NCBI GenBank assembly: GCA_963575745.1
Contig: CAUYUJ010000670.1
Span: 274,166 to 338,165, forward strand
DNA from: Prorocentrum cordatum
Lineage: Eukaryota > Sar > Dinophyceae > Prorocentrales > Prorocentraceae
DNA: 64,000 nt
Direction of reading: 5' to 3'
Numbering within the stretch: position 1 is the stretch's first letter; the number at the start of each line of letters is the position of its first letter. A model generated the notes under the pieces. It had not been told where the DNA came from and made no database searches. It saw only the letters and a list, made by a program, of their open reading frames with translations. This document shows positions 4,448 through 51,560 of the stretch, piece by piece. The position numbers and the translations under genes are program-made.

Positions 4448-5500
4448 TTGGCTTCGAGCGTGGAAGTCCTTTTTGCGACCTGCGGCCTTGAGCCGCATGC
4501 GGCCCAGGGGCCTGCCTGGGATCCTGAGCGGCCCCATCACCGCGATAGTGCTCTCGATAGGGCTGCGAGGACAGCCGCGTCCGCCTGGGCCGCCTTGCCA
4601 GGAACCGCCATACTGCGAGTGCACCTCCCCCGACTTGGGCGGGCGCGACGTGCCCCGAGCTGGCTCCTTGTCCGCCGTGCCCGACGCTGGCGGGCGCCGA
4701 CGGGGCGGCGGGGATCCTGGACCTTCGCCCGGGCGGGCGGCGGCCGCGGCTGGACAAGGCAGCCGTCGAGCTCAATGATGTGGTGGTGGGCCTGGACGAC
4801 TTGGAGGGCTACGCCTGCGCTGGTCGACGCCCGCATGGCCCTCGAGGGCGGGGCGGCGGCGGGCGACCGGCCAGTGGAGAGCGAGGGCGCCGTGACTCCC
4901 GACAAAGATGTGTTGCTGTTGGGCACGATGTTCGGGGGCCGCTTCCTGGCTCGGCGGGCGGCGCTGCGCCCCGGAGGAGCAGCGCCTAGCGGCGGTCCTC
5001 AGGAAGACGAGGCGGCGGGGGCGGCCGGCGGGGCCTCCGATGGCAACGGTGTTGCTGAGGGCTACCTTCAACACGGGCCGCTGGACACGCCAGAGGGGCA
5101 TGCGCGGTTTCCGATGGAGGGCGCCCGTGTCGGCGAGCTGGGCAGCGAGGTGGCGTTCGGTCCCGACTACTTTTGGCTTTCGGGCTGCGACGCCACGCCG
5201 CTCCGTCGAGGCCAAGGCCGCCGCGGTGAGCTCGTCCCGCTGACGGAGGTGGACGATGCTAGGAGAACCCGCCGGGAAGAACTAGCTGCCCAGCTGGGGG
5301 CCACGCTCGGCCCGACGCCGACGCCGACGCCCCTGGAGCCGCCTCCCCGGCCCGCCCCAGCTGTGCCCGAGGACGCGGACGCGGCCGGCGGCACGGCCGC
5401 TCAGCTTGCAGTGGCCGAGGAGGCTCGGCCGCTCTTGATAGACTACGACGACCAGGGCGAGAGGTGTAAGGCACACCGCGAGGCGGTGCAGGACCCTGAG
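4448..5500 (+). pseudogene. Retroelement segment 1: gag-like N-terminal region
   Basis: One open frame runs to the insertion point. The upstream half is compositionally biased; the last 150 residues look like real protein: a charged stretch (D-A-R-R-T-R-R-E-E-L), a Pro-rich linker (repeated P-T and P-P) and then I-D-Y-D-D-Q-G-E-R-C-K-A-H-R-E-A-V. The D-Y-D-D-Q-G-E-R block is one I recall at the equivalent place in dinoflagellate RT polyproteins. The frame ends in D-P-E at 5500, where element 1 begins; the matching continuation (E-T-S-G-E-S) starts at 25280. The true start codon is not clear and may lie upstream in another frame. Confidence 0.6.
5497..5500 (+). repeat. Candidate target duplication of element 1, left copy (TGAG)
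   Basis: TGAG here and TGAG at 25279-25282 flank element 1. Removing the insert plus one copy joins codons ...CCT-GAG-ACC-TCT... in frame. The duplication may be 3 bp (GAG) or 4 bp. GAGGTCTC is nearly palindromic, which leaves the exact end open by a few bases. Confidence 0.55.
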
Positions 5501-5580
5501 GTCTCATCCGGCTAAAATATAGCTGTCTTTCGCTACGGCTAAACAAAAAGCTGCCACAGCTATTTTTTAGCTGTGTACAT
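5501..5580 (+). repeat. Element 1 left end with subterminal AGCTGT/GGCTAAA motifs
   Basis: In about 80 bases: ggctaaa (twice), agctgt (twice), aagctg, agctatttt. The same words in both orientations recur at 25197-25276. Repeated short subterminal motifs are transposase binding sites in CACTA-type elements; that function here is inference. Confidence 0.55.
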
Positions 5581-5784
5581 ACATATGCTATGTAAAGCAG
5601 CATTTGCACATATATACACATCTATTCGACCGACAACTTAATACCTAACGAATTTGTGCATATGATATATTACAACAGATGAAATTCATCAAAGAATATC
5701 ATCCCTCTCTCTCACACACGTAAATATGAATGCATATACACACTACACACACGCACCTGCTGCAGCATGCAGTTTTTGAAAGCG

Positions 5785-6205
5785 AGCCGACCTCCATCCA
5801 GATATATGTTGGGTCCTGGTCTCCACGGGGCGTGCCCAGAGAGGGGAATGCGAGCGGTGCTTGGAGCGATGGCTAAGTGTCGGTGCGTTTGGCGCCGCCA
5901 CTGGGCCACCCGCGGGCCGTTTGCAATTTCGTCTCTGGGTTGCCTCGGAGTGGAGCCCAGGGGGGCGTCTAGGTGCACAGAGTCTTGGGTGGGAGTCTAG
6001 GGATCAGGAGTCTAGGGATCAGGAGTCTAGGGATCAGGAGTCTAGGGACCAGGAGTCTTGGGCGGGAGTCTAGGGACCAGGAGTCTAGGGCGGGCGTCTA
6101 GGCACAGGGAGTCTGTGTGGGTAGTCTAGGGCGCGAGTCTAGGGCTAGGGGTCTAGGGCGGGCGTCTAGGGACAATGCGTCAGTCTAGGGCAGGTGGTCT
6201 AGTTG
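5785..6205 (+). repeat. Direct repeat A plus GTCTAGG minisatellite (left copy)
   Basis: Positions 5785-5973 match 22903-23083 at roughly 80% by eye in the same orientation (shared blocks include cgtgcccagaga, cgccactgggccaccc and tgcctcggagtgga). Both copies are followed by an array of degenerate units built on 'agtctaggg' (here 5969-6205). The copies are 17.1 kb apart, near the two ends of element 1. Confidence 0.75.
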
Positions 6206-6263
6206 AATAGCCTATGGCGTTGATGTCTATGAGGGCGCCTGTCCGATCACACTGTGTATCATG

Positions 6264-6281
6264 CCGCAGTTCTGGGTCAAG
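6264..6281 (+). other. Weak candidate relict spliced leader before the KRPAA gene
   Basis: The stretch ccgcagttctgggtcaag resembles the 3' part of the dinoflagellate spliced leader (ttttggctcaag; 10 of 12 aligned) with a 3-base gap further 5', and ends two bases before the ATG at 6284. The match is poor enough to be chance. Confidence 0.2.
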
Positions 6282-6283
6282 GC

Positions 6284-8792
6284 ATGGCCTCTGGAGGGAA
6301 GAGGTCGGCGTCGTCCGCCTCCCGCGACGGCCTCCAGGCCATCGCCAAGCGCCACATCACAGTTCCAGATGGTGTGAACGGTGTCAAGTACACCACGAAG
6401 TTGGATGGCCCGCTCAACAGCACAGCGATCACCGCTGTGAGAGACATGCTCATCGAGATCCGAGCGTTGTCGCCGCATGGCGGCATCCAGCAGTCCATGC
6501 TCGCAGAGGCGCTCGCAGCGCACGGCAAGTCAATGGAGAGAGAGTGGCACCTCGGTCCCGAGGTGATGGCATGGGCAGAAGACGTTGCCAGGAGCATCCG
6601 TGCGATGTTGCGGCACGTTGCGACCGCGACGTGCAGGCCAGACCGGGTGCCGAGCTGGGCCGCCGTCTTCGTTGAGGACATGGGCCTTCCAACCCATCAT
6701 CGCACCATCCTCACACCCCCGTCTCCACGCCTCCCCCGCACAGTGGGGGGGCGAGGAGGACGAGGACGATGATGCTGATGATGATGATGATGATGATGAC
6801 AGTGATGATGATGCTGATGATGTTGGTTTTGATGCTGATGATGATGCTGATGATGATGATGCTGATGTTGATGATGATGGTGGTTATGCCGATGGTGGTG
6901 ATGGCGATGGTGATTGTGATGATGATGATGATGATGATGATGAGGATGGTGTTGATGATGGTGACGATGATGCTGGTGGTAACGGTGATGATGGTGCTGG
7001 TGACGATCTTGATGCATGTCGAGCCCGATCCAGCAGGACTCGGATGGTGCTGCTGTCGGGGACGGTCGCGATGACGAACGTGATGTGGTGGGTGGCGGTG
7101 CTGCGACGGACCAGCGGGTTGAAACGCTGGACGGTCCGAACTCCAGGTATCAATGCAGCGCCAACGGGGTGTCAATGCATGCGTTGACACCCCGTTGACG
7201 CTGCGTCGACGGTTGGCGCTTCGTGTGCTGGCACCCGTCACTTCCCTCACTGATTCAATCTCGCACGCCTCGTCATTGTGTCTCGCGTGTCGTGCCGATC
7301 TATCCATCCCTCTGTAGATACGTGCGTATCTTGAGGTCATGTAGCACCCATGTCTTTCATAGTCCTGTATATACACCTGTCTCCCTCCCCATATCTTTCA
7401 ACATGGTTGTGCACATACGCATATACGTGTGAAGAAATACATGCGTGGTCACTCCCATCCTGCATTCCGCCACCTCGATAGGACTCGACTGCCGACACGA
7501 CGTGGACGCACGGCATTGCCGCGGACATGCAGGTGGACGCACTCATCCAAAGCAACCGATCCAGCTCATCATCCTCCTGCTCCTCCTGCTCATCGTTCGC
7601 TCCATTCGTTGCTCTGCCAATCGTATCCTTCATCGTTCAGTCCCGTCCCATGGATCACCTGGTGGTCAACACCACGCCCACATCACCCTCTGCCGTAATC
7701 CTCCTGTCGTGATCGGCATGCCTCCTTTTCGTAATGACCCTCCTCGTCGGCAGACCCACCTATCGCACCCGTTTCGACCTCCATTCCTAATCGCTCTCCT
7801 TCTCGTCGCCTTCCTCCCCTCAACGTCCGTATCACTATATTCATTGCCTCCGCCTCGGCTTGTCGTCGTCATCGCCATCTCCGCCGCCGTTCCCGCCTGT
7901 TTGCGGCTCTCGGTAGGTGGCGTGGCGCACGCGCAGGACGAAGCCGGACGGGCGCATGGAGTGCGCCAAGGCCATGGCGAAGATGACGGATGCCGACGGC
8001 GTCGGGTACACTGTCGCGAAGTGGTCCGACGGTGACGTGTGGAGGGTGCCCGACGACCTCGGGCTGAACGACGGGCCTAAGCAGAGGTCCGAGGACGGCG
8101 TCATCTGGGAGGGCCACGCGCCAGACGACGCGAACTACAGGATCGTGCTGAAGAAGGTGAACAAAGTCAGCACCAGCTGGCTGGTCTTGTGGCATCCGCG
8201 GGCTGGTCAACGCGACGAGCAGAAGTGCCAGCTCATGGGGTGCGCGTCCGAGGAGGCGGCGAAGGTGTGGATGATCAGCGCTGCCAAGCGCTTGCTGTCA
8301 GGAGAGATCGACAAGCCGCAGATGGAGGCAGAAAAACGAGAGTGGCTTTCTACTAACGGCCTGGCGGTGAGGAAAAAACCAAGTGGTCAGACGAAGATCC
8401 TCAAGAGGCCAGCGGCATCCACGAGCATGCCAACTCCCAAGAAGCCGAAGGGGACGTCGGACGACGACATCGGGGGGCCCGAGGAGCACGCGGCGGACGA
8501 GGAGGGCGACGAGGACGGCTCCACCAAGGAGGAGAAGCTGGACGTCAACGAGGACGAGGAGGAGGAGGACGAGGCCAATGACGAGGTGGATGACGAGGAC
8601 GCGGAGCCAGAGCAGCAGCTGGCCGAGGCCATCGGGCGCAAGCCGAGGCCAGCGGCGAGTACGCAGCCCGAGGTGATGAAGCGCCCAGCCGCAGTGACAG
8701 CGTCTGCGCCGCCTCCGCCGTCGTCGCCGCAGCAGGCGACGCCAGGGGGAGTGCCAGCCATGCCGCAGATTCCAGATTTTTTGTTTGATTGA
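6284..8792 (+). CDS. Acidic KRPAA-motif protein of unknown function (at least two exons)
   Basis: I do not recognise a named family. Exon 1 (6284 to about 6690) starts M-A-S-G-G-K-R-S and encodes about 135 residues of helical-looking sequence (R-D-M-L-I-E-I-R, A-W-A-E-D-V-A-R-S-I-R). Exon 2 (about 7936-8792) encodes a folded-looking part with Trp-containing motifs (V-A-K-W-S-D-G-D-V-W, T-S-W-L-V-L-W-H-P), then a tail with two K-R-P-A-A motifs, a long Asp/Glu run and a Pro-rich end before TGA at 8790-8792. The intervening 1.2 kb has a GAT microsatellite and no coding signal; splice sites were not resolved. Basic KRPAA patches next to acidic runs suggest a nuclear or nucleic-acid-associated protein, which is inference. 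It is the first gene inside element 1. Linking the two exons into one gene rests on context only. Confidence 0.45.
6766..7016. repeat. GAT/ATG trinucleotide microsatellite
   Basis: About 250 bases of 'gatgat' with gct/ggt interruptions, inside the putative intron of the preceding gene. It generates poly-Asp, poly-Met and poly-His open frames, all discarded. Confidence 0.95.
7151..7202. repeat. Hairpin with 21-bp arms (cgttgacacc family)
   Basis: The left arm around gcgccaacggggtgtcaa and the right arm around ttgacaccccgttgacgc are reverse complements over 21 bases with one mismatch, separated by an 8-base loop. The word cgttgacacc recurs at 14090-14230, and related words occur at 21490-21530 and 24000-24015, all in element 1. 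Confidence 0.8.
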
Positions 8793-8954
8793 TGGGCGCT
8801 CCGTCGAGCTCGCAGCCATACAGCACTGCTGCCACACATGATCGCATGACAGATGCAGCTGGCAGCGTTTGCTCGACTTGCCCAGAGCTCAGAACATCTG
8901 ATTGTGAATGTACAATTCGCTGGTGCGAACCTTCATCATCCGTCGAGGCTGCCT

Positions 8955-9110
8955 GCGCACCGAGAGCCGAGAGCTGAGTTTCGCCGAGAGCTGAGTTCCG
9001 CCGAGAGCTGAATCACCGAGAGCTGAATTCGCCACCCCGCCGAGAGCTGAATTTCGCCGAGAGCTGATTTAGCTGGGCACAGCAGCTGAGCGTCGCCGAG
9101 AGCTCAATCG
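8955..9110. repeat. Short tandem repeat of 'gccgagagctga'
   Basis: Nine or so degenerate copies of ccgagagctga(att)cgc lie between the KRPAA gene and the next gene. No open frame of interest. Confidence 0.85.
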
Positions 9111-9398
9111 CCACCCCGCCGAACCCCCGAACGCCCGAACGTCCGAAAGATCGCCTAGGGGAAATTGACATTCGTCATCTTCCTCCTCCTCCGCCTCGTC
9201 AGCATCATCAGCATCGTCGTCATCAACATCATCACCCTCATCCTCGCCATCTTCCTCGAGATCCCAAATGGTTACTATGTCTCCTCTTTCTCATAGCCCG
9301 ACTCCCCGCCCTCCTCCTCTACTCCCGTTCATCATCATCCCCCCCATCTTTATCCCCCTCCACCTCCACCCACATATTGGGGGTCACCCGCAGCAGCG

Positions 9399-10114
9399 AT
9401 GCCCAAGAGGGAGGGCCCTGAGGGGTCCGTGCAGTGGGGACAGACTCCACCGAACTGGCTCCGCATGACGACCATCGGACAGGTGATTTCTCGCGGCGCC
9501 GCCGCCGCCAAGAAGAACGACGTGGAGGACATGCGGGGGGAACAGCAGCAACACCAACACCGACAACAACAAACGCATCACGAACCTCAACATTACCAGC
9601 AACAACGGCAGTCGCACCACCAACAACAACAAAACCAACAACAACAACGATAACAACAAGATGAATACCAATGAAACCGCCACCCATAACCACAACCACA
9701 CCAATATCAACAGCAACACCAACAGCACAAACAACAACATCAACACCAACATCAACACCAACAACAACACCACCGACAACAACACCAACAACAACAGCAC
9801 CACCAACAACAACCACCACAACACCATCTCACATCTGGCCCTGGGACTCCGAGCGCACGCACGCGTGGACCCTCCCCGCCGATGCGCGCGCCCACCCCCG
9901 CCCCCCCTATGGTCGACGAAGATCGGCACCCCCTTGTTTTCCTGCGGGTCGGGCAATGTGCGACTGGGCCTCAATAGATCAGAGCTCGGACGAGGATGGG
10001 ATGAGGAAAACAACAAACATAATCAGGAGGAAGGGACTCGAGAGAGACGGGAGGGACCAACAGATAATGATATTGACAGCAAGATGATGATGGAGGGGGA
10101 GTGCGAGAAGGCGA

Positions 10115-10164
<50 letters not shown>

Positions 10165-13100
10165 ACGTGAGAAAGACTGCGCCCCCAGGAGCAGCCATCG
10201 CCATCTCGGAGGAGCCAGTCACCGACGCCGCCGACTGCAGCCCGCGCCGTGATCGATCTCAGTCCCGACACGCTGGCAGTCGAGAACGGTTTCAGGATTG
10301 GCGACGAGTTGTTCGTCCCCGATGGCTTCGACGACCAGCTGCTGCGCGATTTAGGCGTCCCCAGCTTGCCCGACAGCGCCGGCCCGCCAGATGTCCCTCC
10401 CCAGTGCGCGCAATTCACTGACGCACAGCGCCCCCTTGGTGATTCCCAGGGCACGTACCCGCAGGACTCTCCACCGTCTGGCCCCTGGTCCTGTCGCGAG
10501 CTCGGTGAGCCACAAGAAGCTACCCTGGTCGAGGACCTCGACTGGTCCATCCAATACCCCTCGGCCCGCGCCCGCCACGTGCCACGCACGGACCCCGCCC
10601 CTGCCCCGTTCCCCGTCGCCCCGCTTCTTGGGATCGATGGGGCGCGCGGAGGAGACGCTCTAGGATGGGCCGCAGGATGGCGAGGGGGATGTTGGAGCTC
10701 GAAAGTGAGTTCGGAGATGGGGGACTGGGGCGAGGAGAAAGATCACGAGGAGGAAGATGGGCTGAATCAGGAGCCATAGGATGATGACGAGGATGCTGAT
10801 GATGATGATGATGATGCTGATGCTGATGCTGATGATGATGATGATGATGATGACGATGCTGATGCTGATGCTGATGATGATGATGATGAGGAGGATGATA
10901 TGGAGGAGGAGATGGGGGATACAGACATCGGAACCCGACGTGACCCTCGCAAGGACGGAGCGGCCTATGGGGACACGCTGAAGGAAGGGCCCGAGCTGAT
11001 CAACACGGGCGAGCTGGTCAACAAGGGCGAGCTGGTCAACAAGGGCGAGCGGGTCGACAAGGGCGAGCGGGTCGACACGGGCGAGCTGGTCAACAGGGGC
11101 GAGCTGGTCAACAAGGGCGAGCTGGTCAACAAGGGCGAGCGGGCCGACAAGGGCGAGCGGGTCGACAAGGGCGAGCTGGTCAACAAGGGCGAGCTGATCA
11201 ACAAGGGCGAGCTGGTCAACACGGGCAAGCTGATCGACAAGGGCGAGCTGATCGACAAGGGCGAGCTGGTCAACACGGGCGAGCTGGTCAACACGGGCGA
11301 GCTGATCGACAAGGGCGAGCTGCTCGACTCTGACCCGACGCCGTTCCAGATCTTCGAGTGGGTGAACATGCTCATCGATCAGACCATCGACGAGAAGGAT
11401 ATACCCCCCATCTGTCTCATCGTACTAACTGGCTCCCTTCTCGTTCCACTCCTCCATCACCTCCACCCCTCCCCTCACCCTCCTACTCCTCATCCCTCTT
11501 CTCGCCATCCCCCCACATCCTCATCTTGATCCTCCTCCTCCTCAAACCTCCACGGAACAGTGTTGACTCGAATCGGCCAATGGCGATCCAGCCCGCCCTT
11601 CTCGCAATCCACCTCCTGAAGCCGCTGATCACTATCACATCCTCCTTCTCGATCGCGAGGACAATGAGGACGACCTCCTGAAGCCGCTGATCAAGACTTC
11701 GATCACCGACGGCGCGACGATCGACTGCGAGCCCGTGCCCGAGACCGATGCAGCGGACGACGAGGTCGCGCGGGCGGCGGCAGCATCATCACGCATGCCG
11801 AGATGTGCGGCGGCGGCGGCAGGCGGTGGCGCTCCTGTGCGCGAGCTCCGTCGTCTCCCCGATTCCGCCCCCGCCGCCATCGGCAGGCCCCTCGAGACGC
11901 CGACGAAGAGTGTGAAGAGGACACCGGTGTTGTCAGAAACCGACATCCGAGCATGATGGGGGAGCGTGTTGGTCTTACACCTCCTCATGTCTGGACCCTC
12001 CTCTCCATTTTGTTCACCCGCAACATCCCGCCTCCGCGAACGCATCGCATGCCTCTCCCATGGCAGGCGAGGAGGGGGGTGAGGAGGAAGAGGAGGAGGA
12101 GGAGGTGGAAGAGGACGAGGAGGATGAAGAGAAGGATGAGGCCAAATCATGCAACCTCAGCCCCAGGAGCCCCCTGGACGACTTCAACATCAAGGCTGAT
12201 GAGATCAGCGGCATGGTGGACAGCTCGGAGCCAGACGAGGACAAGATCATCAAGGAGCTCAAGGAGCTCATGCGGAGCCCCCCCCTCGAGCAGATGAGAA
12301 AGTGGGCTGGCGCGAACAGCAGCTTCGCCGACGCCAGTGCGCAGAAGCCGATGAGCGAGAAGGACAGGCGCGAGAAGGAGTTCTGGGAGGCCCTCGAGCA
12401 GGATGGGTACAAGTTCGGGGCCAGAGGCGCCGCGGGCAACCCAGCGGCAGGGAGGTGGCAACGCGAGCTGGCCAACAACGAGGACCTGGCCAAGAGGTAC
12501 TCCGAGTGCGGCGTCGGGCTCAAGGGCAGGGGGCTCTGGGCGAAGCAGGAGCAGTTCAGGGCGGAGTGGGCCAAGGGGGAGCACACGTCGTTCAAGGAGA
12601 CGAAGGAGCTCACCGCGACCATGCGGAAGGAGTGGGAGAAGAAGGGTCAATACCTTCCATTGGCCCGCATAGCCTGGAAGGAGGGCGGCGGCAAAAGTGG
12701 TTGGGCCGCCGCGGTGAAACATTACACGAAGTGCATCGCCATGGGAGGTCCGTTCATCCTCTACGATGGGTCCACGGAGAACCTCAAGGTGCTCTACACG
12801 ATCCAGACCTACACCGAGCACTTCTCGGAGGCGTGGAGCCGCCACCAGCAGTGGGCCCACGCTGCATCGACGGCGACGGCGACTGGATCGGGCAGCGCGG
12901 CGGCGGCGACGGCAGATGGCCCCGAGGCGAAGAAGATCAAGACGGACATCGAGGCGCCTGCATCTGACCAGGCGGCAGCTGCTGCGACCTCCGCGGGCTC
13001 AGGATCCACAGCCGCGGTGGCCAGCGCCAAGAAGAAGGCCAACAAGAGGGGCGCCGACGAAGCTGGAGGGCCACCTGAGAAGAAAGAGAAGAAGGCGAAC

Positions 13101-13321
13101 CCGCTGCTCGAGTACATGAAGCCCGCCAAAGATATCATTGCCCTGTACAAGTCCGCGATGGTGCAGGCGCACACGATTTTGTCCAACATCGAGTGCGACG
13201 AGTCCTGGAAATTCGCGAAGGATGACCCGTCCCGCACCAAGGATCTGAAGCAGGACGCGTGGGGCCTTGATATCTTACCTCACTCGTCTTCCTCTCATCC
13301 TCGCCGCCACCCTCCTCTCTA

Positions 13322-13359
<38 letters not shown>

Positions 13360-13830
13360 CTCATCCTCCTCGTTCTCATCATCCTGATTCTACCCCCCCT
13401 CCCCTCGCCCCCCTGTGCGAGGGGTGAGGGGTGAGGATCAGGAGGGATCTGAGTGCTAGGAGGATGCTTGAATGAAGCACGCAAGTTTGGATATCGAGGG
13501 GAATTGATAGCAGGAGGACGAGGATGAGGAGGATGAGGACGAGGAAGAGGACGCCAACCTAAATGATGGGGAGGACGCTGGCTTTCCAAACTTCTGTTGT
13601 CATCCCAGGCCCAGAAGCACGTCCTGGATGAGATTAACAAGGCCCCGAACCTCAGAGACCTCCTCTCCCGAGACATGGCCGAGGTCAGGAAGGCATTGGA
13701 CGAAGACGCGACGAAGGCCGCCCTCATTGGCTCCGTGAATCTCGCCAAGCCCCTGGAGAAGCTGCGCCGCCAGAACAAGACTCTCCTTGGGGACCGCGAC
13801 GCGAGGGCCAACCTGGGCGGCAGCGACTAG
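9399..13830 (+). CDS. Multi-exon protein with 19 hexapeptide repeats and a Trp-rich domain; dinoflagellate family, function unknown
   Basis: The likely start is ATG 9399 (M-P-K-R-E-G-P-E-G-S). Exons I can join in frame: 9399-9527 to 10189 across a GA-AG intron (V-E|E-Q-P-S); a repeat exon ending at 11397 to 11669 across another GA-AG intron (D-E-K|D-D-L-L); and 13256 to 13609 across a GC-AG intron, ending at TAG 13828-13830. The boundaries between the exon from 10189 and the repeat exon, and near 11955-12067, are unresolved. Order: basic/Ser-rich start; acidic region; nineteen E-L-V-N-K-G-type hexapeptides (10992-11333); a poly-Glu start at 12067; a domain with W-Q-R-E-L, F-R-A-E-W-A-K and Y-L-P-L-A-R-I-A-W; an Ala/Ser/Lys-rich linker; a C-terminal helical domain. 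I recall this domain order from dinoflagellate hypothetical proteins only. No enzymatic motif was seen. Confidence 0.55.
9540..9832. repeat. CAA/ACC-rich low-complexity tract
   Basis: Runs of caacaac, accaac and cagcaa fill most of the first intron of the hexapeptide-repeat gene. They produce Asn/Thr/Gln-rich open frames that are not counted. Confidence 0.9.
10107..10163. repeat. GA dinucleotide microsatellite
   Basis: An almost pure (ga)n run in the first intron, about 25 bases upstream of the acceptor at 10187-10188. Confidence 0.95.
10778..10897. repeat. GAT/GCT trinucleotide microsatellite
   Basis: Runs of gatgat and gctgat lie between two exons of the hexapeptide-repeat gene. Confidence 0.95.
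10992..11333 (+). repeat. Coding minisatellite: 19 x 18 bp (E-L-V-N-K-G type)
   Basis: Nineteen back-to-back 18-bp units on the model gagctggtcaacaagggc. Substitutions give the variants E-R-V-D-K-G, E-L-I-D-K-G and E-L-V-N-T-G. The array keeps phase throughout, which supports its being translated. Confidence 0.95.
13324..13357. repeat. TA dinucleotide microsatellite
   Basis: A (ta)n run inside the last intron of the hexapeptide-repeat gene. Confidence 0.95.
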
Positions 13831-15360
13831 CGGGGGGTGCGCAGCTAAAAAGGTCGAGGGTGATCGTTGCGCGGGAGAAATGTCGAGTGGAAGGCGTTTT
13901 CTCATAACCACGGCTGGATTCAATTCGAATGCGCGTCGATCCAGGTCGGGGCAGGTTGAAAACCGAAAAAACTGATCTGGATGCGAAATATCACGCGAAA
14001 CCTAGGCGAGCCGGTAAAACCACGCCCGAGCCGGAAAAAACCACACTGGGGCCGGGAATCTTCGGGGCGTCATTGCGTTGAAGGTCCGTTGACACCTGGA
14101 TGTTGAAGGTACGTTGAAGGTGTGTAGAAACGACCGAATGGCCCGATACATCCGCACGTTGTGGCGTTGACACCCCGATCCGTTGATACCCCATGTGCCG
14201 TTGACGAGCCGTTGAAGGTTCGTTGACACCTGGTAAGTGACCAGTAGCTGCAAAAATCCTTGAGTTTCGTTGTGTTTGGTGGGAAACCCCGCAGCGATCA
14301 CCCCGACCTTGAGCGTACTAGCTTGGTCACGGATATCAGGCATCAGCCATCGTATATCGCCCACGATATCCTCTTACCTGGTACGCCAGGTGATCTAGCA
14401 TGTGATTCCTGCAGCTCGCGCTGCAACGTGGCTTTTGTTCTATGCGCGTGTTCTTGAGATTCAGGATGCACCATCGACCATGGGCTCGGCTGACATCTCA
14501 GCCACCTCGACCCCTCCAGAAACGTTCGCAAGGCTCGCGCAGCCCCTAGCCTTTCCAGAAACGATTGAGTCCTGGTTGTAAACATTGGTGTGCATCATTC
14601 GATTGCAGTTTGAAGCTTCGCCGCGCTGTCAGACGGTTTTTATCTTACTCCTCTTCTGTCTTTCCTCCCTCCCTCCTCCGCCTTCACCTTCCTCTTCACC
14701 TCCTCCTCATCATCATCCTCGTCTTCCTCCTCATCTTCCTCCTCCTCATCCTCGCTATCCTTGGTCTGTCACTTTTCCTCCTCCTCATCCTTCACCTCCT
14801 TCTCCGCCTCATCATCCGCCTCATCCTCCTCATCCCCCTCCATCTCCACATCCCCACCCCCTTTTTCTGCCTCCACCTCATCCTCATGATCCACCTCTTC
14901 CGCCCCAACCATCCGTCCTTTCTATTCGATCCCAGTGGCTGCAATGCCCGCGCCGAAGCTGCTTGCACCGTCTGCGTTTTTTTTGTCTCTGCACACTGCC
15001 GAAGCTGCTTGCACCGTGTGAGCTTGCCCCGCCAGGGCTCTTGGGGCACTTGCCCTGGTGCGTGACATCTCGGTTGCGTCTGAGATGAATCAGGATGGGC
15101 TGGCGCGGATCGTTCGACCCAAACGTTTGATTCTATCGGATCGACAATGGCTCTACATCCTAGACATCGTCCTAGACCACCAGCTTTTAAACCTGTGCTT
15201 TAAACCTGTGAGGCTCCGCAGCCGCCCAAATCAAACCCCATTGCGCGAACGTGCACAATACCCCTCTTGTCCCTCGGGCTCGCCATGCCGAGATCGAGGA
15301 GTCGGAGCAGACGAGCATGGCGACATACTGACCATGCTCAGCGTGTGCATGGAGCAGAGG
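13831..15360. other. Interval between repeat-protein gene and transposase
   Basis: About 1.5 kb without a supported gene. 14055-14235 has interspersed cgttgaaggt/cgttgacacc repeats. 14640-14900 is a C+T-rich tract (tcctcctcat) typical of intronic sequence here. 15070-15360 may hold an N-terminal transposase exon (a frame reading V-A-S-E-M-N-Q-D-G near 15070) but no splice join could be shown. Confidence 0.5.
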
Positions 15361-22870: not shown

Positions 22871-22902
22871 GCTGCACAGCGCACCGCATTCTGACATCGA
22901 AC

Positions 22903-36978: not shown

Positions 36979-37899
36979 ATGGGTAAGACGGCGCCCCTCG
37001 AGGCCGCCAAGATCCGCTTCAAAGGGGGTGCAAAGGCAGGGCCCCAGCACTCCGAGCGCGGCAGCATCATTCTCAAATCGCTCATGCTCAACAAGGCTCC
37101 AGCCACATTCTTGTTCATCGTGAGCATGTTGCTCTCCGGCCTGAGCGACGTCGACGGCCTGGACAGCGTTGAAGCATTCGCTGGGTACAAGGCCATCACG
37201 AACGCCTACCGCAGGAACAACTACAAGGCTGTAAGTTTAGAGTATAACGACGATGAGCTGTTCCAGAACGTGCTCACAGACGAGGGCTTCGCACATTGGG
37301 TTGCCCAGTACTTGCGTCTCAAGCCTGGCGGCGCCAGCAACGCGGGCATAGTGTGCAGCAGTTGGGTGTTCATTTGCATGGGTAGCAGCGGCAGACGTAT
37401 GTGGAAGCCTTTAGGGAACACTAGGAAGGAATATGTTCGCGATGGGAACTTAATGGTTTCACGACAGGTGCTGCTGGTACTAATTCTGATTGCGAAAGGG
37501 GTGTTCTGGTTGTGGGAACAGCTCATGTCGTCGCTGATGCCCTTTCATCCTCGCTTCAAATGGTTGCTCAAGACGTTCGGGGTGTACCGCCAGTTCGTGT
37601 GGTTGGGGGCGTATGGAGCGCCTTCGAGAAAGGGTATCTTCCTGTGGTCCATGCACCCAGAGGTGAAGGAGCTCTACCGCCCGCTCCCCAATGGATTCAG
37701 GGGCTCCGGGGACCTGGTCATAGTGGACAACAATGGTGGTATCGCAGGGGCAAAGGGTAAGCTCAAGGAGAGTCAGACTTATCCACCAGCCTTCGGCAGA
37801 GCGGTGGCGAACCTGTACATGAAGCACGAGGCCTCCTTCATCATGCGAGCCCAGGAGGCCCAGGCAGCTGCGCAAACCAAAATGAGGAGGAGTCGATGA
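36979..37899 (+). CDS. C5-methyltransferase-like protein, element 2 copy (single exon)
   Basis: 306 residues from ATG 36979 (acc before the ATG is a good start context) to TGA 37897-37899. Motifs: V-E-A-F-A-G-Y (64-70, SAM motif I-like), D-D-E-L-F-Q-N (91-97), G-I-V-C-S-S-W-V (123-130), S-G-R-R, W-L-W-E-Q-L (177-182, in the place of the C5 enzymes' E-N-V), Y-G-A-P-S-R-K (212-218), Y-P-P-A-F-G-R-A-V-A (268-277). They occur in the same order as in the element 1 copy. Two hydrophobic stretches (42-54; 163-178) are long enough to be buried helices or membrane segments. Unlike the element 1 copy it has no intron and lies upstream of, not next to, the transposase. I recall this family from dinoflagellate genomes only. 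Methyltransferase activity is inference; the Pro-Cys catalytic pair is replaced by Val-Cys. Confidence 0.55.
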   Translation: MGKTAPLEAAKIRFKGGAKAGPQHSERGSIILKSLMLNKAPATFLFIVSMLLSGLSDVDGLDSVEAFAGYKAITNAYRRNNYKAVSLEYNDDELFQNVLTDEGFAHWVAQYLRLKPGGASNAGIVCSSWVFICMGSSGRRMWKPLGNTRKEYVRDGNLMVSRQVLLVLILIAKGVFWLWEQLMSSLMPFHPRFKWLLKTFGVYRQFVWLGAYGAPSRKGIFLWSMHPEVKELYRPLPNGFRGSGDLVIVDNNGGIAGAKGKLKESQTYPPAFGRAVANLYMKHEASFIMRAQEAQAAAQTKMRRSR

Positions 37900-40070: not shown

Positions 40071-42926
40071 ATGTGCCTAGACCAACGTGCACCCACACAT
40101 ATGCCAGAGATACAGCGTCGTTTATCAGCGATGTTCGGAACCCTCGCCAAAGGCAAGCCCCGCGGCCCGCCCCCTCAGCAGAATTCCCTGGTGCCGACGC
40201 AGTCGCTCAAGGGCGGCAAGAGCAAGGCGGGCGCTGACGCATCAGGCAAGGGGAAGGTCGCCCCGAAAGCCGCGAGCAAGAGCTCCGAGGGCAAGGGCAA
40301 GGTGGGCGCTGACGCATCAGGCAATGGGAAGGTCGCCCCGAAAGCCATGAGCTCCGAGGGCAAGGGCACTGAGCCGAAGGGCGTGGCGAAGGGCTCGGCG
40401 AAGGGCAAGGTCGACTCATCGAAGTGCGTGGCGAAGGGGAAGGTCGAGGTGTCGAAGGGCAAGGTCGATGGTTCGAAGGGCGCTGTCAAGGGCGCGAAGA
40501 GCGCGGCAAAGGGTAAGGAGTCCGGGGCGCCAGAGGTCACGAGTCTGCCAGCCGTTCCGCCCGCGCACCCGGGGGCGCCAGAAATGACCCCGCCGCCCGC
40601 AGAGAAAGCAAGATCGCCAGCCACGCCAGCCAGCCAGATGAGCCCGCCAGCCACGCCAGTGCGCACCGCAGCCAAAACGATCTCCCCGGACCATAGCCCG
40701 ATGATCAAGCCCGAGTTGTCCAAAGCTGGCGCCCCGGTGCTGACGCCGCCGCCAGTGGGGCCGCCAGCCCAGCCCGCCATCAGGACAGCTTGCTCAATCC
40801 TCGATTGCCTCCCTCTTCTGTGCCCTCACCTGCACCCTCCTTGCCTTGCTCTGCGACCTTCCCCCTCGTGCTTTATTTGAGCTGCCCCTGCTCTGCTCCT
40901 CCTGCAACAATCCTTGCTACTGATCTGCATTTCTCCCATGCTCCCCATGCCTCGCGAGGAAGAGGGCTGCCATGGACAAGGACGCATTTCTGGCCATGGT
41001 AGAGAAGTCCGCGCGCCTGAACGGTTTAGACATGGGCGAGTTGTTCCCCCCCCAGCCGCCCCAGGAGGAGGACCCTGGCAATCCAACAAGTTGAAAGTGG
41101 AGGAAGAGGGATGGTGAGGAGGGATGGTGAGGAGGGATGGCGAGGAGGGATGGCGAGGAGGGATGGTGAGGAAGGATGTTGAAGAGGATCCACTCCATCA
41201 ATTCAAAGATCGAGGGGTAAGGTGTTTTTTCAATTGGAATTCTTGGGGTGTGGGGCGTGGGGGCAGGTGATATGGCCCCAGGGCCCAGGGGCCCAATGAA
41301 ACTTGTGACGTCTGAAACAGTTTGTTGAGATCCGCCCTGATGCCCTGACAGGACGCTGAGGCCCTGGAGCGCCTGGCAGAAGAAGCGCTGGTGGGTACAG
41401 CGACGCCTCCACTCGCAGAGGCCGACGAGCCCATGCCTCTCGCCGACGACAAAGACGGCGACTGGTGGGCCTCCACAGGCCATGATCGTCTTGCAGAGCC
41501 AGCCCCTGAGCCAGAGACCGAGGACGGCGCGCCGCCCACCGAGGAGTGTCTTGAGGCTGGCGGGTGGGACGGTGAAGGTGAATACTTGCCCGAGGATGGT
41601 GGAGCCGATGGCGAGTACGACGAGCTCGAGGAGTCCTTGACCGAGCTCCAGGAGGAGGTGGAGGAGGCCGCAGGCGAGTGGTGCCCAGAGGACGGCGCTG
41701 CAGAAGAGGTAGACGCCGCTGGCGGGGACGTCGCTGGCGGGAACGCCGCTGATGGGGAGGGCGCCGCTGGTGGCATCGCTGACGGGGTCACTTCCAACGT
41801 GGGCGCCGCCCCGGGGTCTTTGCAGAAGCTCCAGCAGGCCGCCGCTGACATCAAGAAGAAGACCGACGACGAGGACCCGAACTCAACCACGCACCACGCG
41901 GCGTACTGTCGCTTCCTCCGCGTCTGCGCCAACAAGAGGAAATTTCCTGATTCCTTGATAGCGGAATGGAAGAGTGATAAGAGGGGGCTATTCAAGGCGT
42001 GGTTGCAACACGGGGAATGCATCGCATCGGTGGAGCTGTACTACAAGCGCGCGCGCGAAGTCAAGGAGACGCTCAAACAGCTCTTCGGCTTCAGGACGCG
42101 CGATGACTTGCTCACGATGTACCACGGCAACGAGGCGAAAATCGACGCTCTGATCGAGACCAAGATCAAGAAGAAGCTCTACCGCAAGCACCCGGAGTTC
42201 CCGCACGACCCAGACATGTGGCAATACTACGTCATGCTCGACACCACCTTCTCGCACGAAGACTCGACGCTGGACGCGCTGTCCATGGAGCTGACTGGGT
42301 CGGTAAGCCAAGAGGATGCTGGCGAGATGTTCGAGTCAGGAGTGAGCCGCGGCTTGGCCGCTTCTGGGGAAGCCCAAGCCGAAGCCATGCTGACATCGGC
42401 TGAGCCCGAGGCCTCGACGGGCAAGGGCAGCAAGAACGGCAAGAACGGCAAGAACGGCAAGAACAGCAAGAAGGGCACCCCGGGCAAAGGCGGCAAGGAC
42501 AGCACCCCGGGCAAGGGCGGCAAGGACGGCAAGAGCAAGAAGGGGAAGGGCGGCGAGGACGGCACGAACAATAAGGGCACAGAGAAGACCCCCGCAAGCA
42601 TGATCAAGACCCTCACCGCTGCAGTCCTGAAGGAGATGGGCGACTCGAAGAAGTACGCTATTCAGCTCCAGGGCATGGAGTGCCAAGATCAGTTGGCCTC
42701 GCAGATGCGCGCCCACTCCACCCGCCTGGAGTCATTTGCCGTGGAGCTCCAGGCCCTGACGAATGGCACGCCGACGGAGGAGCAGGCGACGAAGGTGTCG
42801 AACCAGTACAACATGTGGAACACCTGGTATGCGAAGAAGGCCTCCATCGCAATCGCCACGTGCAGGGCGGCCGCGAAGGAGAAGGCAGCCGCGGCTGCGG
42901 CCGAGGCAGCCGAGGAGGAGGCATGA
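40071..42926 (+). CDS. Lys/Gly-rich multi-domain protein, three exons with GA-AG introns
   Basis: The start is ATG 40071, 40101 or 40131 (same frame); 40071 is preceded by gctcaag, the 3' end of the spliced leader, in a weak overall match. Exons 40071-40783, 40959-41070 and 41352-42926 join in phase; both introns (175 and 281 nt) begin GA and end AG, with AG|GA on each side. Exon 1 is low complexity (K-G-K-V, then Pro-rich). Exon 2 reads M-D-K-D-A-F-L-A-M-V-E-K. Exon 3 has an acidic region, a globular domain from about 41850 (Y-C-R-F-L-R-V-C, L-F-K-A-W-L-Q-H-G-E-C, L-F-G-F-R-T-R-D-D-L, A-L-I-E-T-K-I-K-K-K-L), a G-K-N-G-K-N linker (42420-42590) and a C-terminal helical domain ending in an Ala/Glu run before TGA 42924. 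I recall this domain order from dinoflagellate hypothetical proteins; no catalytic motif. Possibly a structural or nucleoprotein cargo. Confidence 0.6.
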
Positions 42927-43781: not shown

Positions 43782-46369
43782 GTCAACGTCGGCGAGAGGA
43801 CACAACTGGTCACCGACCTTCTAGACGCAGGAGCTGCCAGCCCCCGGACAGCTTCCATGAGGAAGAGGAGGAGGAGGAGGAGGAGGAGGAGGAGGAGGAG
43901 GAGGGAGTGAAATAAGCAGGAGGAGGAGGAGGAGGAGGAGGAGGAGGGCAAGGGGGGGACGCGATAAAGAGTATCACGAGGGAGAGGGAAACCAGGGGCA
44001 ACTGGAGGACCGATGGGGAAGAGGAGGGGGAGGGGAGGAGGAGCCTGGCAGCTTCTGCTCCGCCCCTCCCTCCCCCCTCGATCCTCCTGCCCCCCTCTTT
44101 TTCTCCTCCTCCTCCTCCTCCTCCTCCTCCTCCTCCTCCTCCATGTCCCCCTCCACTCCTCGTGCATCCAACATCCAGCCACATCCCTCCTTATCCTCCT
44201 CCTCTTCCTTTACTTCTCCATCCCCCCTGCCATCCTCTCCATCCTCAGGGGACTCCACTACGATGAGCTGATGCACTCAGACACAGTTGACAATTGGATT
44301 ACTCGAATTGGGACTGGGAAAACATCGGTTGCAGAATGCTGCCGAACATCTAGGGATCTTGTGACAGATGGCGTGCAGCACCCAGCTATCAGAGAATGGG
44401 CAACGCTAGGTGCTTCCGGGAACCAGGAGCAACATCAAGAGAGAGACCTCCATCGGTGGCTAAAAAAACTCGGGCTCGAGATCGAACCTGATATTTTGAA
44501 TGCTAAGTTGCCGTGTAAAGACGGCATCGGGACCTTCGACATAGACGTGCCCATTCTCTACCCCCACGAGCTCTTCCATGCCATATTTAATGGTGCCGAA
44601 GATCCTGGAGGCATTCAATTCACGACGGCTTTTCTCGGGAGTAAGGGCCAGGAGGGGGTTGAGGAGTTCTGGCAGTGCGCTTGCAGAGAACCATGGGGGA
44701 AGGACGACGGGGCCTCAGGATAGCAAGCAACAGCTGGACCCCAGGGCGCACAGACCGAGAAGGATGGGGCGGAGGAGGAGGGCGACGAGGAAGTGGGAGG
44801 GGGCATGGACAGGAGGAGGTCAAGGAAACAGAAGGATAACGGCCCCCGGGGGGACGGGGCGAGCTCCACTCCCCATTTTCCCCTTGCCACTTCTCGCCCC
44901 CAAATGCCCCCTCCTGCCCATCTCCTGAGATGTCCGCGATGGCAGCCCATCCCCCACCGCCCCAGGAGCACGTGGCGGTCAACGAGAATGATCACAAATG
45001 GATGGTGCCGATTGTCTTGCATTACGATGGGGTTGGTATTAGCAATGAATGTGAATTGGGCGTTTGGCATTGGAGTTCAATTTTAACTCGCGCTGATTCC
45101 TGGGACTGCAAACAACTTATAGGTTCTGTGCCAGTTGAACTGATGACCACCGAGGCCCTCCAAATATATGTTCAAAGGCAAGTGGCAAACGCAATCACAT
45201 GGAGTGTCAAATGGGCCGAAAAAGGTGTGTTCCCAGATGTTGACATGAATGGCGCTCCCTTTCCGGATGGGTCTTGGAGGGCTAAGATGGCAAAACAATT
45301 TATAGCTGACGGTTGGTCTGTTTGCTGCGTGGGGTTCAAAGGTGACCACCCTGCTGCCAAAGTCACCCACGATTTACCCAGGACGTATCAATGCGCACAT
45401 ATGTGCATGAAGTGTTGTGCCGTGAACCCCAAGAAAACAACAAGCGAATTGCTCCGCAAGATGACGTTCGCTGACGCATCTGATAAAGCAAACTGGAGGG
45501 ACACATTGGTTTCTCACGAAATGTATGCTTGTTCGGCTCATGCGAAAAGCCCTTATATAGACATGCACGGCTTTAGGGTAGATCGGATTTTCGATGATTT
45601 GCCGCATGATTTGTATTTGGGGTCAGGGAAAGACCATTGTGCTAGCATTATTATGGATATGCTGGAAAATGGGTTGTTGGATTATGGCGGGGATTATGAT
45701 GATAATCTCAAGGGTCTGTATTCCTGGATGCAAGAGTGGTGCAAGAATAATGGTATATTCTGCCCGCCCCACGGTTTCTCAGTACAATCGCTCGGTCGGG
45801 GAAGCAAGTGGAGACGATTTCCGATATTAGCCAATGTTGTGAAGGGGGCGCACACCAAGATCATCATTTTTTTCGTGGCCCATGTTGCTGAATATCAATG
45901 TGACGGTTCAGAATATTCTAAATTGCGTTCCTTGTGTGCTTGGGCCCTCGCGTCTCTCCTCGGCGTCCTGGACGCAGCCGGCTTATGGTTAACAGATGAT
46001 GAACAAGCTAAGGCACACGAGGCTGGGACCATATGGTTGTTATCTTACCAGGCACTTGCAATCAGAAACATTGAGTTGAAGAGATGCTTATATTTCATTC
46101 GGCCCAAGTGGCATTATCTTGCCCATACAATCGACAACCTGCTATACAGCAAGATGAACCCTCGATATCAACATTGCTTCATGGAGGAATCTTTCATGGG
46201 GGAGGTGGGGCGGATGTACGCCAAGGCCCCCGATCGCAACCGCCTGAAACGCGGCATGGACCGATATTTATTGCAGCTTGGCCACCGCATTCGGAGAACA
46301 GCTCGCGACGAGGCCGAGGCCTGGGGTCGGCGGGCAGGGAGGCGCACTGGCCTCCGCTGCACTTCTTAA
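43782..46369 (+). CDS. DDE-transposase-like protein, element 2 copy (three exons)
   Basis: Exons 43782-43861, 44249-44702 and 44966-46369 join in phase over GA-AG introns of 387 and 263 nt; an upstream exon probably exists because 43782 follows a cgcag acceptor. The main exon holds the whole core. Numbering from an in-frame ATG at 44930 (within the intron, used for reference only), the candidates are D33 in L-H-Y-D-G-V, D223 in F-D-D-L-P-H and E420 in C-F-M-E-E-S; each aligns with the element 1 copy. Cys clusters (T-Y-Q-C-A-H-M-C-M-K-C-C) lie between the first two and may bind zinc. P-K-W-H-Y-L-A-H precedes the Glu. A basic C-terminus ends at TAA 46367-46369. Codons are richer in A/T at third positions than in the cargo genes. 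It looks intact from 43782 onward and is the best candidate for an active mobility protein. Superfamily (CMC/KDZ/Plavaka-like) is inference. Confidence 0.75.
43862..44150. repeat. Complementary GGA and TCC microsatellites within one intron
   Basis: The intron 43862-44248 has (gga)n at 43862-43950 and (ctc)n at 44101-44145. They are complementary, so the intron RNA can form a long imperfect stem that brings the splice sites together. Confidence 0.8.
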
Positions 46370-46901: not shown

Positions 46902-46932
<31 letters not shown>

Positions 46933-46943
46933 TTGTCGTCGTC

Positions 46944-46987
<44 letters not shown>

Positions 46988-48654: not shown

Positions 48655-49690
48655 AGAAGGAAAAAACGCAATGTTGCGTCAGCCTCCTTAAAAGGTTACA
48701 GAAATTTCAAATTCAGTTTCTGCTCCAAAACAAGTGGCTGTGTGGACAGATTTGCGTGTGCAGGCGCGCACGAAAACAAGTTTTCGTGTGAACCTGTCCA
48801 TGAACCCATGTTGCGTCGGCCTCCTTAAAGGGCCACAGAAATTTCAAATTCAGTTTCTGCTCCAACATGGGCGGTTTCAAGGTTTTCGTGCGCACGTTCG
48901 CACGAAAACAAGTTTTCGTGTGAACCTGTCCACGAAACCACCCATGTTGCGTCGGCCTCCTTAAAGGGCCACAGAAATTTCAAATTCAGTTTCTGCTCCA
49001 ACATGGATGGTTTCAAGGTTTTCGTGTGCACGTTCGCACGAAAACATGTTTTCGTGTGAACCTGTCCACGAAACCACCCATGTTGCGTCGGCCTCCTTAA
49101 AGGGCCACAGAAATTTCAAATTCAGTTTCTGCTCCAACATGGTTTCAAGGTTTTCGTGTGCACGTTCGCACGAAAACAAGTTTTCGTGCGAACCTGTCCA
49201 CGAAGCCACCCATGTTGCGTCGGCCTCCTTAAAGGGCCACAGAAATTTCAAATTCAATTTCTGCTCCAACATGGGCGGTTTCAATATTTTCGTGTGCGCA
49301 CGCGCACGAAAACAAGTTTTCGTGTGAACCTGTCCACGAAACCACCCAGAAATTTCAAATTCTGCTCCAACGCATGTGTGGTTTCAAAGTTTTCGTGCGC
49401 ACGTTCGCATGAAAACAAGTTTTCGTGTGAACCTGTCCACGAAACCACCCATGTTGCGTCGGCCTCCTTAAAGGGCCACAGAAATTTCAAATTCAGTTTC
49501 TGCTCCAACATGGGTGGTTTCAAGGTTTTCGTGTGCACGTTCGCACGAAAACAAGTTTTCGTGTGAACCTGTCCACGAAACCGCCCATGTTGCGTCGGCC
49601 TCCTTATAGGGCCAAAGAAATTTCAAATTCAATTTCTGCTCCAACATGGGTGGTTTCGTGGACCGGTTCGCACGTAAAACTGGTTTCGTG
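48655..49690. repeat. 136-bp palindromic satellite, eight units
   Basis: Units begin with atgttgcgtc at 48671, 48808, 48944, 49080, 49212, (truncated near 49346), 49451 and 49587. Each unit contains two hairpins. One is gaaaccacccatgttg with its exact 16-bp reverse complement about 55 bp downstream. The other is gttcgcacgaaaac-aa-gttttcgtgtgaac, 13 of 14 paired. The first unit is the most diverged. Frames through it are repeats of the same peptide and are not genes. Confidence 0.9.
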
Positions 49691-50159
49691 CAAAACCTTT
49701 AATCCGCGCGCGCGAATGTATGCAGATATGTATATACACATGCGTTCTGTTATCGTGGTTTTTTTTTAAAAAAAAGAAGCAAACACATACATAAACAAAC
49801 ACATAAACAAAAACATAAACATAAACAAGAAAAAGAAACATGCGCGGAGGTCTCCGCGAGGGGCCGCGGATTTTGAAGCACAATTAATATGTTTTGGGCC
49901 TGGGGCGCACATGTCCAAGAGGACATGGGAACGCCAACAAGAGATGGCGCTGGGCGCTGGCATTCCACATATTTTCGTATACGGACTTCTGTTCAGCGCC
50001 ATCTTTTGTTGGCTGCAAACAGCTACTGGTGCCCATGCATGAGCAACACCTGGTGGGCACGGCGCTGGCCGAGTCGAGGCGCCATGCGCTGACAAGGGAA
50101 AGAGACAGACAAAACATCAAAACAACAATCTCCCCAATGACATCGCATCGTCGATTGTA
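49691..50159. other. Interval between the satellite and the right subterminal array
   Basis: Contains an A/T-rich tract with 'acataaacaaac' repeats (49785-49835) and the fourth copy of the dispersed repeat (49850-50000). No gene seen. Confidence 0.5.
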
Positions 50160-50337
50160 CTCGCATGCGGTCGTGCATGCAGTCGCACGTGCACGCGCGT
50201 GCTCGCACGTGCACTCGCACGTGCACGCATGTGCTCGTATACGACACCCATGTTCTCGTATACGGACACGAAAACGAAAGCGCGCCTAGTGGTGCGCTTT
50301 CGCCAACTAGGCTCGTTTTCCGCGCCATCGGATCTAC
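50160..50337 (+). repeat. Element 2 right subterminal array and terminal inverted repeat
   Basis: Repeated gtgctcg, cacgtgcac and tcgtatacg words lead into gaaagcgcgc/gcgctttc and gccatcggatctac (50324-50337), the reverse complement of the left terminus. The inner array is purine/pyrimidine-alternating and mirrors the left array's gctcgcatgt vocabulary. Confidence 0.7.
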
Positions 50338-51560
50338 CCGGCAGAAGGTGACAGCCCGCCAGGCACTCCACGCCCACCCCGAGGAGCTGCCGAGCAGGAG
50401 CGAGACATGCTATATCAACGCGTCAATCCTCATGGGCCCACAATTGGCGAAGTGGATCGGCACCGCGCTGGCGGATCTGAAGGCGGCGGCTGCCGGCGGC
50501 CCTCTGTGGGCGTTCGACTACGGCGGGCTGCTGAAGTGCCTCCGGCGCGCAGCGTGCGACATCGGGGTGCGCGAACTGGCGCCGCACCAGGCGCGCCAGT
50601 CGGGCCCCGCGGTAGATGCGGCCAGGCACTTAATTAAGGACATTGGCCGACCTCGAGCCACATGGGGCGTGGCGCAGCGACGAGCTTCCTGCCCCACCAG
50701 CGGCGCGCGCTGTTCGCCAGCGGGCAACGCGAGCACCCGGTCAAGATCCTGGGGCACGCCGCTCAGTGCGAGCGACGAGCAGAGGCGATCATCCTCCACG
50801 GACGGGTCGCCCCGCTGCCGCTGGGGGGTGTCCGCGCGTGAAAGATGCGTATTCCTTGACGCCTTCGCCGGCAAGGGCGGCGTCGCCCGCGCCATCAGGG
50901 GGCGCGGTTTCCAGTCGAGAGCGCGGGGGAAATCGCGCGGCGATCGCGACGTCTTGACGTGCAGCAGAGTTCCGCGCCGTCTCGTGTCGGGCATCAGGTC
51001 CAATATATGTTGCGGCGTCATGTTGGCGCCGCCGCGCTCTAACATTTCGATTGCCAAAGTTCGGTCAGCCCCGGGAAGAAGTCAAACTCGACCCCAGGGT
51101 TTCTCCCGCCCAGAGATGTCAAGGAAATAGTGGCTAAATGTAACTGTAGGTAACAAGTGTTTGCGAGCTGTGCTCAATATAATTGATGCGTGCAATCGTT
51201 CGGGTGCTCTCTGGTCTCCGGGGAACCGCATAGCACCCACATGTAAAGACCCCTGAGTTAGTGGAACTCGCTCAGAAGTGTTTCGTTTCAGCGGTTGTCT
51301 CGGATTTCTGTTCGGAACCAGATAGTGTTCGCGAGCTCGTTGATATATGTATATATATAGGCCATCTTCACCCTGATGAGCTCACAAGGTCGTCTAGAGC
51401 TTGCGCCGGGCGTGCCGGGATATGTAGTCGCACCCGCAGGCCGCGCCCGCAGCTCCAGAGGGCCTCTCCAGAAGGGGCGAAATGGATCACCATTGCCCGG
51501 ACGTGTCCGCAGGCTCTCTGCAGGGCCTCGCCCAAAACTCTGGCGTCTCGGGCCATGTGT
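50338..51560 (+). pseudogene. Retroelement segment 3: tyrosine recombinase C-terminus and methyltransferase-like tail
   Basis: It starts at the CGG codon shared with 28688-28690 and continues R-Q-K-V-T-A. 50520-50640: L-W-A-F-D-Y-G-G-L, then E-L-A-P-H-Q-A-R-Q-S-G-P, matching the H-x-x-R box II of tyrosine recombinases (H-Q-A-R). The following region, where the catalytic Tyr is expected, is scrambled by frame changes. 50840-50910: F-L-D-A-F-A-G-K-G-G-V-A, a SAM motif I-like block. 51010-51070: G-V-M-L-A-P-P-R-S-N, where related proteins have a P-P-C/T-P-C motif. In other frames C-L-R-A-V-L-N-I-I-D-A-C (51160) and G-I-C-S-R-T ... C-P-Q-A-L-C-R-A (51410-51530) extend the methyltransferase-like module. 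Several frame changes make the piece non-functional. Confidence 0.6.

Follow-up and report, generated by a model that had tools for sequence, protein, structure and literature searches.

The stretch of the Prorocentrum cordatum genome analysed here (contig C670, positions 274166–338165; 64,000 bp, hereafter the window) carries a probably DIRS-like retroelement copy that, in our reading, was struck after landing by two giant DNA transposons, E1 and E2, the first of which was itself struck by the smaller element E3. Both giants would have been moved by a DDE transposase of the CMC kind. We give this reading a probability of roughly 0.93. Comparisons with other loci of the same genome (a repeat-rich draft, 4.13 Gb long and divided into 21,875 contigs) demonstrate the insertions, their ends and target-site duplications (TSDs), the existence of further copies, the motif order of the transposase, and its recurrent pairing with a methyltransferase-like gene. 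The retroelement segments, E1, E2, their transposase and methyltransferase-like genes and the two further E2 open frames listed below lie on the forward strand.

The retroelement is present as three separated segments: (i) a decayed left segment at 4465–5493 (gag region; the leftmost paralogue matches begin at 4465–4476), (ii) a middle segment at 25292–28686 (the rest of gag, reverse transcriptase (RT), RNase H and the start of a recombinase), and (iii) a right segment at 50342–51600 (the end of the recombinase and a methyltransferase-like region), with homology extending to 51557–51625 in most paralogue loci that reach that far. An earlier note on this DNA had proposed that these are parts of one retroelement later struck by two large DNA elements, and had named uninterrupted paralogues as the test. 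The end of the left segment (window 5300–5500) was used as a query and matched 29 other places in the genome; 20 of these loci were fetched with their flanks (9 were left) and compared with the window by blastn. Uninterrupted paralogues crossing both gaps were found among the 20, and no shared extra sequence, the finding named as refuting the proposal, stands at either point in the loci seen. At gap 1, homology stops at window 5493 in all 20 loci, and 18 pass directly from 5493 to 25291/25292; in L021 the blastn match starts at 25394, yet the family sequence can be followed past the gap by eye. At gap 2, homology stops at 28680–28685 and restarts at 50347–50377, and all 16 loci with both sides go straight from the middle into the right segment (in L009, L010 and L011 the homology is lost ahead of this gap within the fetched 10 kb, and L023 stops at a contig end). 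By sequence comparison, the three segments are confirmed as one retroelement family in whose paralogues they are consecutive.

The precise insertion sites were determined from the register of the window with these paralogues. At gap 1, paralogues read GCGGTGCAGGAGAGCTNTC or near; the window reads GCGGTGCAGGA, then E1, then GAGAGCTATC. On the basis of this empty site and of other copies of the element, E1 occupies 5494–25291 and is flanked by a GA duplication (5492–5493 and 25292–25293). The join corrected in this way is gapless against 17 of the 20 paralogues and translates as AVQESYHAPD, the counterpart of AVQESFHVPD in paralogue L018. E2 occupies 28687–50341, as set by its inverted repeats, other E2 copies and the paralogue register, the last of which also gives the flanking CA duplication (28685–28686 and 50342–50343). 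Here the corrected join, LTPPAQKVTARQALHAHPEE (L018: LTPPTPGVTSHWSLLVRPEE), shows a net length change of zero (two bases extra, two missing) against 14 of 16 paralogues. A 3-bp GGA duplication was ruled out for E1: the same G follows 13 of 13 other E1 right ends, and hence belongs to E1, which ends GGG (25291). Likewise, CCGG and CGG duplications for E2 were ruled out by the paralogue register and the second E2 copy.

These ends revise those of the earlier note, which had placed them at 5500/25283 and 28690, positions that fall inside the inverted repeats; blastn and the further copies give other ends. The codons that it saw coincide across the gaps (GAG and CGG) are parts of the transposon ends rather than TSDs, and add six and two false residues, respectively. 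Its gap-1 join carries 18 extra bases, with none missing, against 18 of 20 paralogues, and its gap-2 join six extra bases against 14 of 16. The statement that the family sequence continues with no loss is correct at the two gaps, but not elsewhere: window 27610–27877 is 266 bp where 15 paralogues have 805–2,401 bp (~970 in most), window 4544–4692 is 148 bp where most have ~450 bp (252 and 297 in two), and the copy contains many stops and frame shifts.

E1 measures 19,798 bp including E3. Its terminal inverted repeats (TIRs) are of the form CCC[T/A]GAGGTCTCA: the left one, CCCTGAGGTCTCA, lies at 5494–5506, and the right one at 25279–25291 on the reverse strand (reverse complement CCCAGAGGTCTCA, 12 of 13 bases alike), both identified by end comparison with other copies. 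A query with the right end found 16 places, namely the window, 13 others where the end is complete and two where it is partial; one with the left end found 14. Both ends occur at a consistent distance on eight other contigs, seven at ~17.1–17.3 kb and C4669 at ~19.2 kb, and a perfect 2-bp duplication flanks eight of the nine copies, including that of the window (GA, GA, TT, GG, TT, AA, TG and AT). The copy on C10147 was sampled along its length: ten of ten 150-base samples are collinear with the window E1, eight at 98–100% identity and the others at 90% and 94%. This copy lacks E3, a 2,538-bp element with inverted repeats of ~38 bp that lies at 17173–19710, between the two parts of the E1 transposase region. 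The comparison also gives the target duplication of E3, TGCCG (17168–17172 and 19711–19715). Judging by their lengths, six further E1 copies would also be without E3, C10147 being the one looked at directly. What had been taken for a single 19.8-kb element is consequently a ~17.3-kb element with a nested E3. No recognisable gene was seen in E3, which is perhaps non-autonomous. Two repeats were observed elsewhere in E1: a direct repeat (76%) of GTCTAGGGCGGGA-rich DNA at 5774–6181 and 22889–23285, near both ends, which may represent subterminal binding repeats, and an 18-bp tandem array (10992–11322) that codes a repeated ELVNKG hexapeptide in an open frame.

E2 measures 21,655 bp. Its left TIR, CCGGGTAGATCCGATGGC, lies at 28687–28704, and its right TIR (50324–50341, reverse strand) is a perfect complement over 18 bp, both from end comparison; the pair scores 37, against at most 30 in 1000 base shuffles. 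A right-end query found ten places including the window, three of which besides the window have the same end: they have GGATCTACCCGG in common and diverge after it. A second two-ended copy, C15665:94053–115787, begins CCGGGTAGATCC and has ends 21.7 kb apart, with flanks ACCT and CTGTAG that give a CT duplication. In the parts read, it is 94% identical to the window E2 over the left 1.4 kb and 97–98% over three inner stretches (195 differences in 9,592 aligned bases), and the right end is likewise present. E2 contains open frames for the transposase (44840–46366, 509 aa), for the methyltransferase-like protein (36964–37896, 311 aa), and for two further products of 525 aa (41349–42923, third-position G+C content 0.81) and 282 aa (30383–31228). 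Near the right end (48671–49657), a ~136-bp unit that contains inverted repeats is repeated in tandem. In an E2 relative on C3236 (157774–186463), the transposase lies ~19.5 kb from the right end, as against ~4 kb here; this relative may carry a further insertion.

The E2 transposase frame has matches in its own genome: at least 84 scored matches among 2,994 candidates (a lower bound, as is the partner count below, only part of the candidates having been scored in either search). Motifs were examined in eight rows, comprising E2 and six sequences aligned with it (alignment A2), plus a seventh, L077, which contains a stop and was read apart. All five rows that extend to the first D have it, and all six that extend to the second D and the C2C motif have both; the E is present in all eight rows, and H3H in six of eight. 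E2 itself shows every one of these motifs. The resulting order, D-D-C2C-H3H-E, is that of the EnSpm and Plavaka transposases, and would place the E2 enzyme in the CMC group. In protein databases it has no relative at E≤0.001. A sequence-profile search of the PDB with A2 returned six chains, which we judged to be chance; the top-scoring one (E=5e-4) is a designed helical repeat.

The transposase of E1 appears to be a distant relative of that of E2, recognisable at the profile level. Its region is split by E3 into a first part at 15204–17172 (YIDG, GDW and CQYC seen by eye; an in-frame stop lies between 15986 and 15990) and a second part at 19711–20508 (PKHHLCVH by eye). Alignment to the E2 transposase profile gave an hhalign probability of 84% (E 7.5e-6) for 15990–16931 and of 71% (E 3.9e-5) for the second part, with both parts in the right order.

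E1 and E2 also share a second, methyltransferase-like protein (E=2e-8). In E1 its gene is in two pieces, 20582–21292 and 21694–22236, which are collinear with E2 36964–37896 in blastp (E=2e-8 and E=0.02, respectively). The E2 protein has seven database relatives, the best of them from P. cordatum itself (76% identity over 47% of the query). The majority consensus of the partner alignment (A1) contains the blocks FAG, CSSWV, NLMVSR, EQPxSSL and WLGAYGAxS, although few columns are identical in all eight rows (G108, S132, S133, W134, L237 and R239). We take these blocks to correspond in position to motifs I, IV and VI of C5 methyltransferases. With motif positions so presumed, CSSW occupies the PC place and EQP the ENV/ENP place; the protein has neither the profile match nor the PC dipeptide by which a C5-cytosine methyltransferase would be recognised. 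A sequence-profile search of the PDB with A1 gave no match.

The pairing of the two genes recurs across the genome. The partner gene has at least 127 scored matches among 1,201 candidates; after merging, 68 transposase places (on 64 contigs) and 127 partner places yield 35 pairs that share a contig. Thirty of these pairs, on 28 contigs, lie no more than 30 kb apart, where uniform placement predicts 0.13; the other five are separated by 74 kb to 1.9 Mb. In all 30 close pairs the two genes are co-oriented, and the partner precedes the transposase. E1 is the exception in order, its partner gene lying downstream of the transposase region.

As for the retroelement, its gag, RT, RNase H, recombinase and methyltransferase-like regions suggest a DIRS-like element, the domains other than RT being named by motif. 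For the right segment, the motifs were read in paralogue L018. RVT_1 matches L018:2148–3896 at E=3e-4 (20.9 bits, under the curated cut-off of 29.6), and has no match in the window copy (ten pieces scanned); across the ten retroelement-region pieces (one on the minus strand), Pfam gave nothing above cut-off (best E 0.24). Tyrosine recombinases follow an R-H-R-Y pattern, against which L018:4852–6384 was read and named a putative recombinase; it is without a Pfam match, and the region has no relative in protein databases at E≤0.001. The methyltransferase-like region of L018 shows FAGGGGG, PPCSTF and ENP by eye, also without a Pfam match. The 3' end of the retroelement (window 51357–51557) matches L012:3019–4534 in two successive stretches, a hint of the A-coding-B-A-B terminal repeats of DIRS-type elements. 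Within the window, no second copy of the retroelement was found (blastn of the window against itself, matches more than 1 kb apart). To the right of it, in a stretch of 69–78% G+C, lies a long direct duplication of 73–75% identity (53232–55049 and 56407–58234; also 52759–53229 and 55595–56120).

Several observations weigh against the reading of nested, transposase-driven insertions. At gap 1, paralogue L023 departs from the family sequence ~8 bases beyond the junction and returns at window 26525. The E1 inverted repeats score 30, which equals the best of 1000 base shuffles; the ends of E1 therefore rest on its other copies, one of which (C4669) shows TG/TA in place of a matching duplication. 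Two of the eight transposase rows (L078 and L081) lack the second H of H3H, and none of seven transposases has a Pfam transposase match, the two weak matches (E 0.23 and 0.25) being to uncharacterised families. Similarly, Pfam searches of eight members of the partner family gave one weak, unrelated match (E=0.14) and no methyltransferase. Some of the 30 close pairs may have arisen through recent copying of a single element, in which case they are not independent. Finally, the frames differ between the two E2 copies: the numbers of silent and changing codons are 13 and 29 in the transposase (plus two 1-base indels), five and 13 in the methyltransferase-like frame (plus one stop), and three and 24 in the 525-aa frame (plus one stop). 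By these counts, made with no formal test, the frames are without sign of selection, and the two copies may be dead.

The same codon counts lend some weight to the idea that E1 and E2 were moved by a transposase from elsewhere, and that the resident transposase-like genes are passengers. We regard this as unlikely: of the 64 contigs that bear the transposase family, 28 have the same partner gene close to it, and E1 and E2 each include a member of the family. A much less probable explanation is misassembly, in which unrelated contigs joined inside a common repeat would mimic nesting. The 4.13-Gb draft is indeed repeat-rich, and RNA scaffolding was used for the P. cordatum assembly (PMC10666404). 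However, the window is without any N, TIRs and 2-bp duplications stand at both pairs of junctions, and on other contigs these element ends are bordered by different flanks. Slightest of all is the chance that recombination brought the three segments together from separate copies of the retroelement; the family does have many copies (the 29 other matches), but with GA and CA each counted once the flanks return to register (no gap against 17 of 20 paralogues, no net length change against 14 of 16), which is unexpected from recombination between copies.

The large size of E1 and E2, their several genes of unknown function and their inverted repeats would also suit integrated DNA viruses or virus-like elements, and endogenous Polinton-like viruses have been reported in a dinoflagellate (PMC12721341). 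Against this stand the 2-bp duplications and a transposase with the CMC motif order. In addition, Pfam searches of 13 E1 and E2 open frames (shorter frames were not scanned, and PHROGs was not run) gave nothing above the curated cut-offs; the best match was Astro_capsid_p (E=0.0012, 18.5 of 25 bits), to an acidic stretch of 7917–8789. In ten of the frames the best Pfam match had E 0.14. No match to viral contigs was confirmed with three queries, and a tblastn search of phages gave none. We consider a viral origin very improbable, on a par with misassembly.

The nested-insertion history that we favour would have run as follows. A DIRS-like retroelement copy landed first, and the giant TIR transposons E1 and E2 inserted later, in either order; E3 would have entered E1 either at this locus or before E1 arrived. 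A DDE-type CMC transposase, probably the resident one, would pair the short, CC-ended inverted repeats of E1 and E2, excise the element, and insert it at a target cut with a 2-bp stagger, such that the dinucleotide is repeated on each side. Movement would presumably be by cut-and-paste rather than by copying. The methyltransferase-like protein may alter DNA bases and so allow the element to escape silencing.

Nested insertions are common; these particular ones show precisely where two giant transposons end and which target bases were duplicated, and tie a divergent transposase to a partner of the methyltransferase-like kind at many sites of a single genome. They make testable the idea that transposons of dinoflagellates bring along a base-modifying enzyme of their own to evade silencing. 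In the literature searched (titles and abstract openings, mostly without subscription papers, and so no proof of absence), there is no description of such elements in dinoflagellates. Of two dinoflagellate papers, one (PMC3229502) gives a RepeatMasker match of 119 bp, under the name EnSpm6_SB, for Alexandrium, and the other (PMC7789003) two putative transposases for Amoebophrya.

The host retroelement resembles SymbioDIRS-Dnmt3 of Symbiodinium, which combines RT/RNase H, a tyrosine recombinase and a cytosine methyltransferase (PMC5890265): it too is a dinoflagellate element, and would likewise join RT/RNase H to a recombinase and a methyltransferase-like region, the latter two named by motif only. 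Unlike in SymbioDIRS-Dnmt3, the methyltransferase-like region of the window copy follows the recombinase.

For E1 and E2, the ends and the duplication together fit no one named family, and so we name the elements CMC-type from their motif order, without assigning them to EnSpm or Plavaka. The CMC group at large has a wider range of termini than these two, and TSDs of 2–4 bp. EnSpm/CACTA and Plavaka elements are described as having a D-D-C(2)C-H(3)H-E transposase, inverted repeats and, in some families, extra genes; EnSpm has CAC termini and a 3-bp TSD, and Plavaka a 2–3-bp TSD with termini TGT (PlavakaA) or CATCA (PlavakaB) (PMC12730594). E1 and E2 share with them the transposase motif order and inverted repeats, and with Plavaka the short duplication (2 bp in eight of nine E1 copies and in both two-ended E2 copies). 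They differ from EnSpm in both termini (CCC in E1, CCG in E2) and TSD length, from PlavakaA and PlavakaB in termini, and from all of these in having no significant Pfam match and in carrying a methyltransferase-like partner rather than a TET/JBP one. Zisupton (KDZ), with its 8-bp TSD, is likewise set apart from E1 and E2 by the 2-bp duplication. Like the fungal DNA transposons of several kinds that bear TET/JBP genes (PMC12730594), E1 and E2 would carry a gene for a DNA-base-modifying enzyme, here methyltransferase-like by motif only. Whether this parallel extends to a large, unnamed lineage of giant dinoflagellate CMC-type transposons, each with its own DNA-base-modifying enzyme, and nesting in and breaking retroelements, is a proposition for which we see the odds as evenly balanced.

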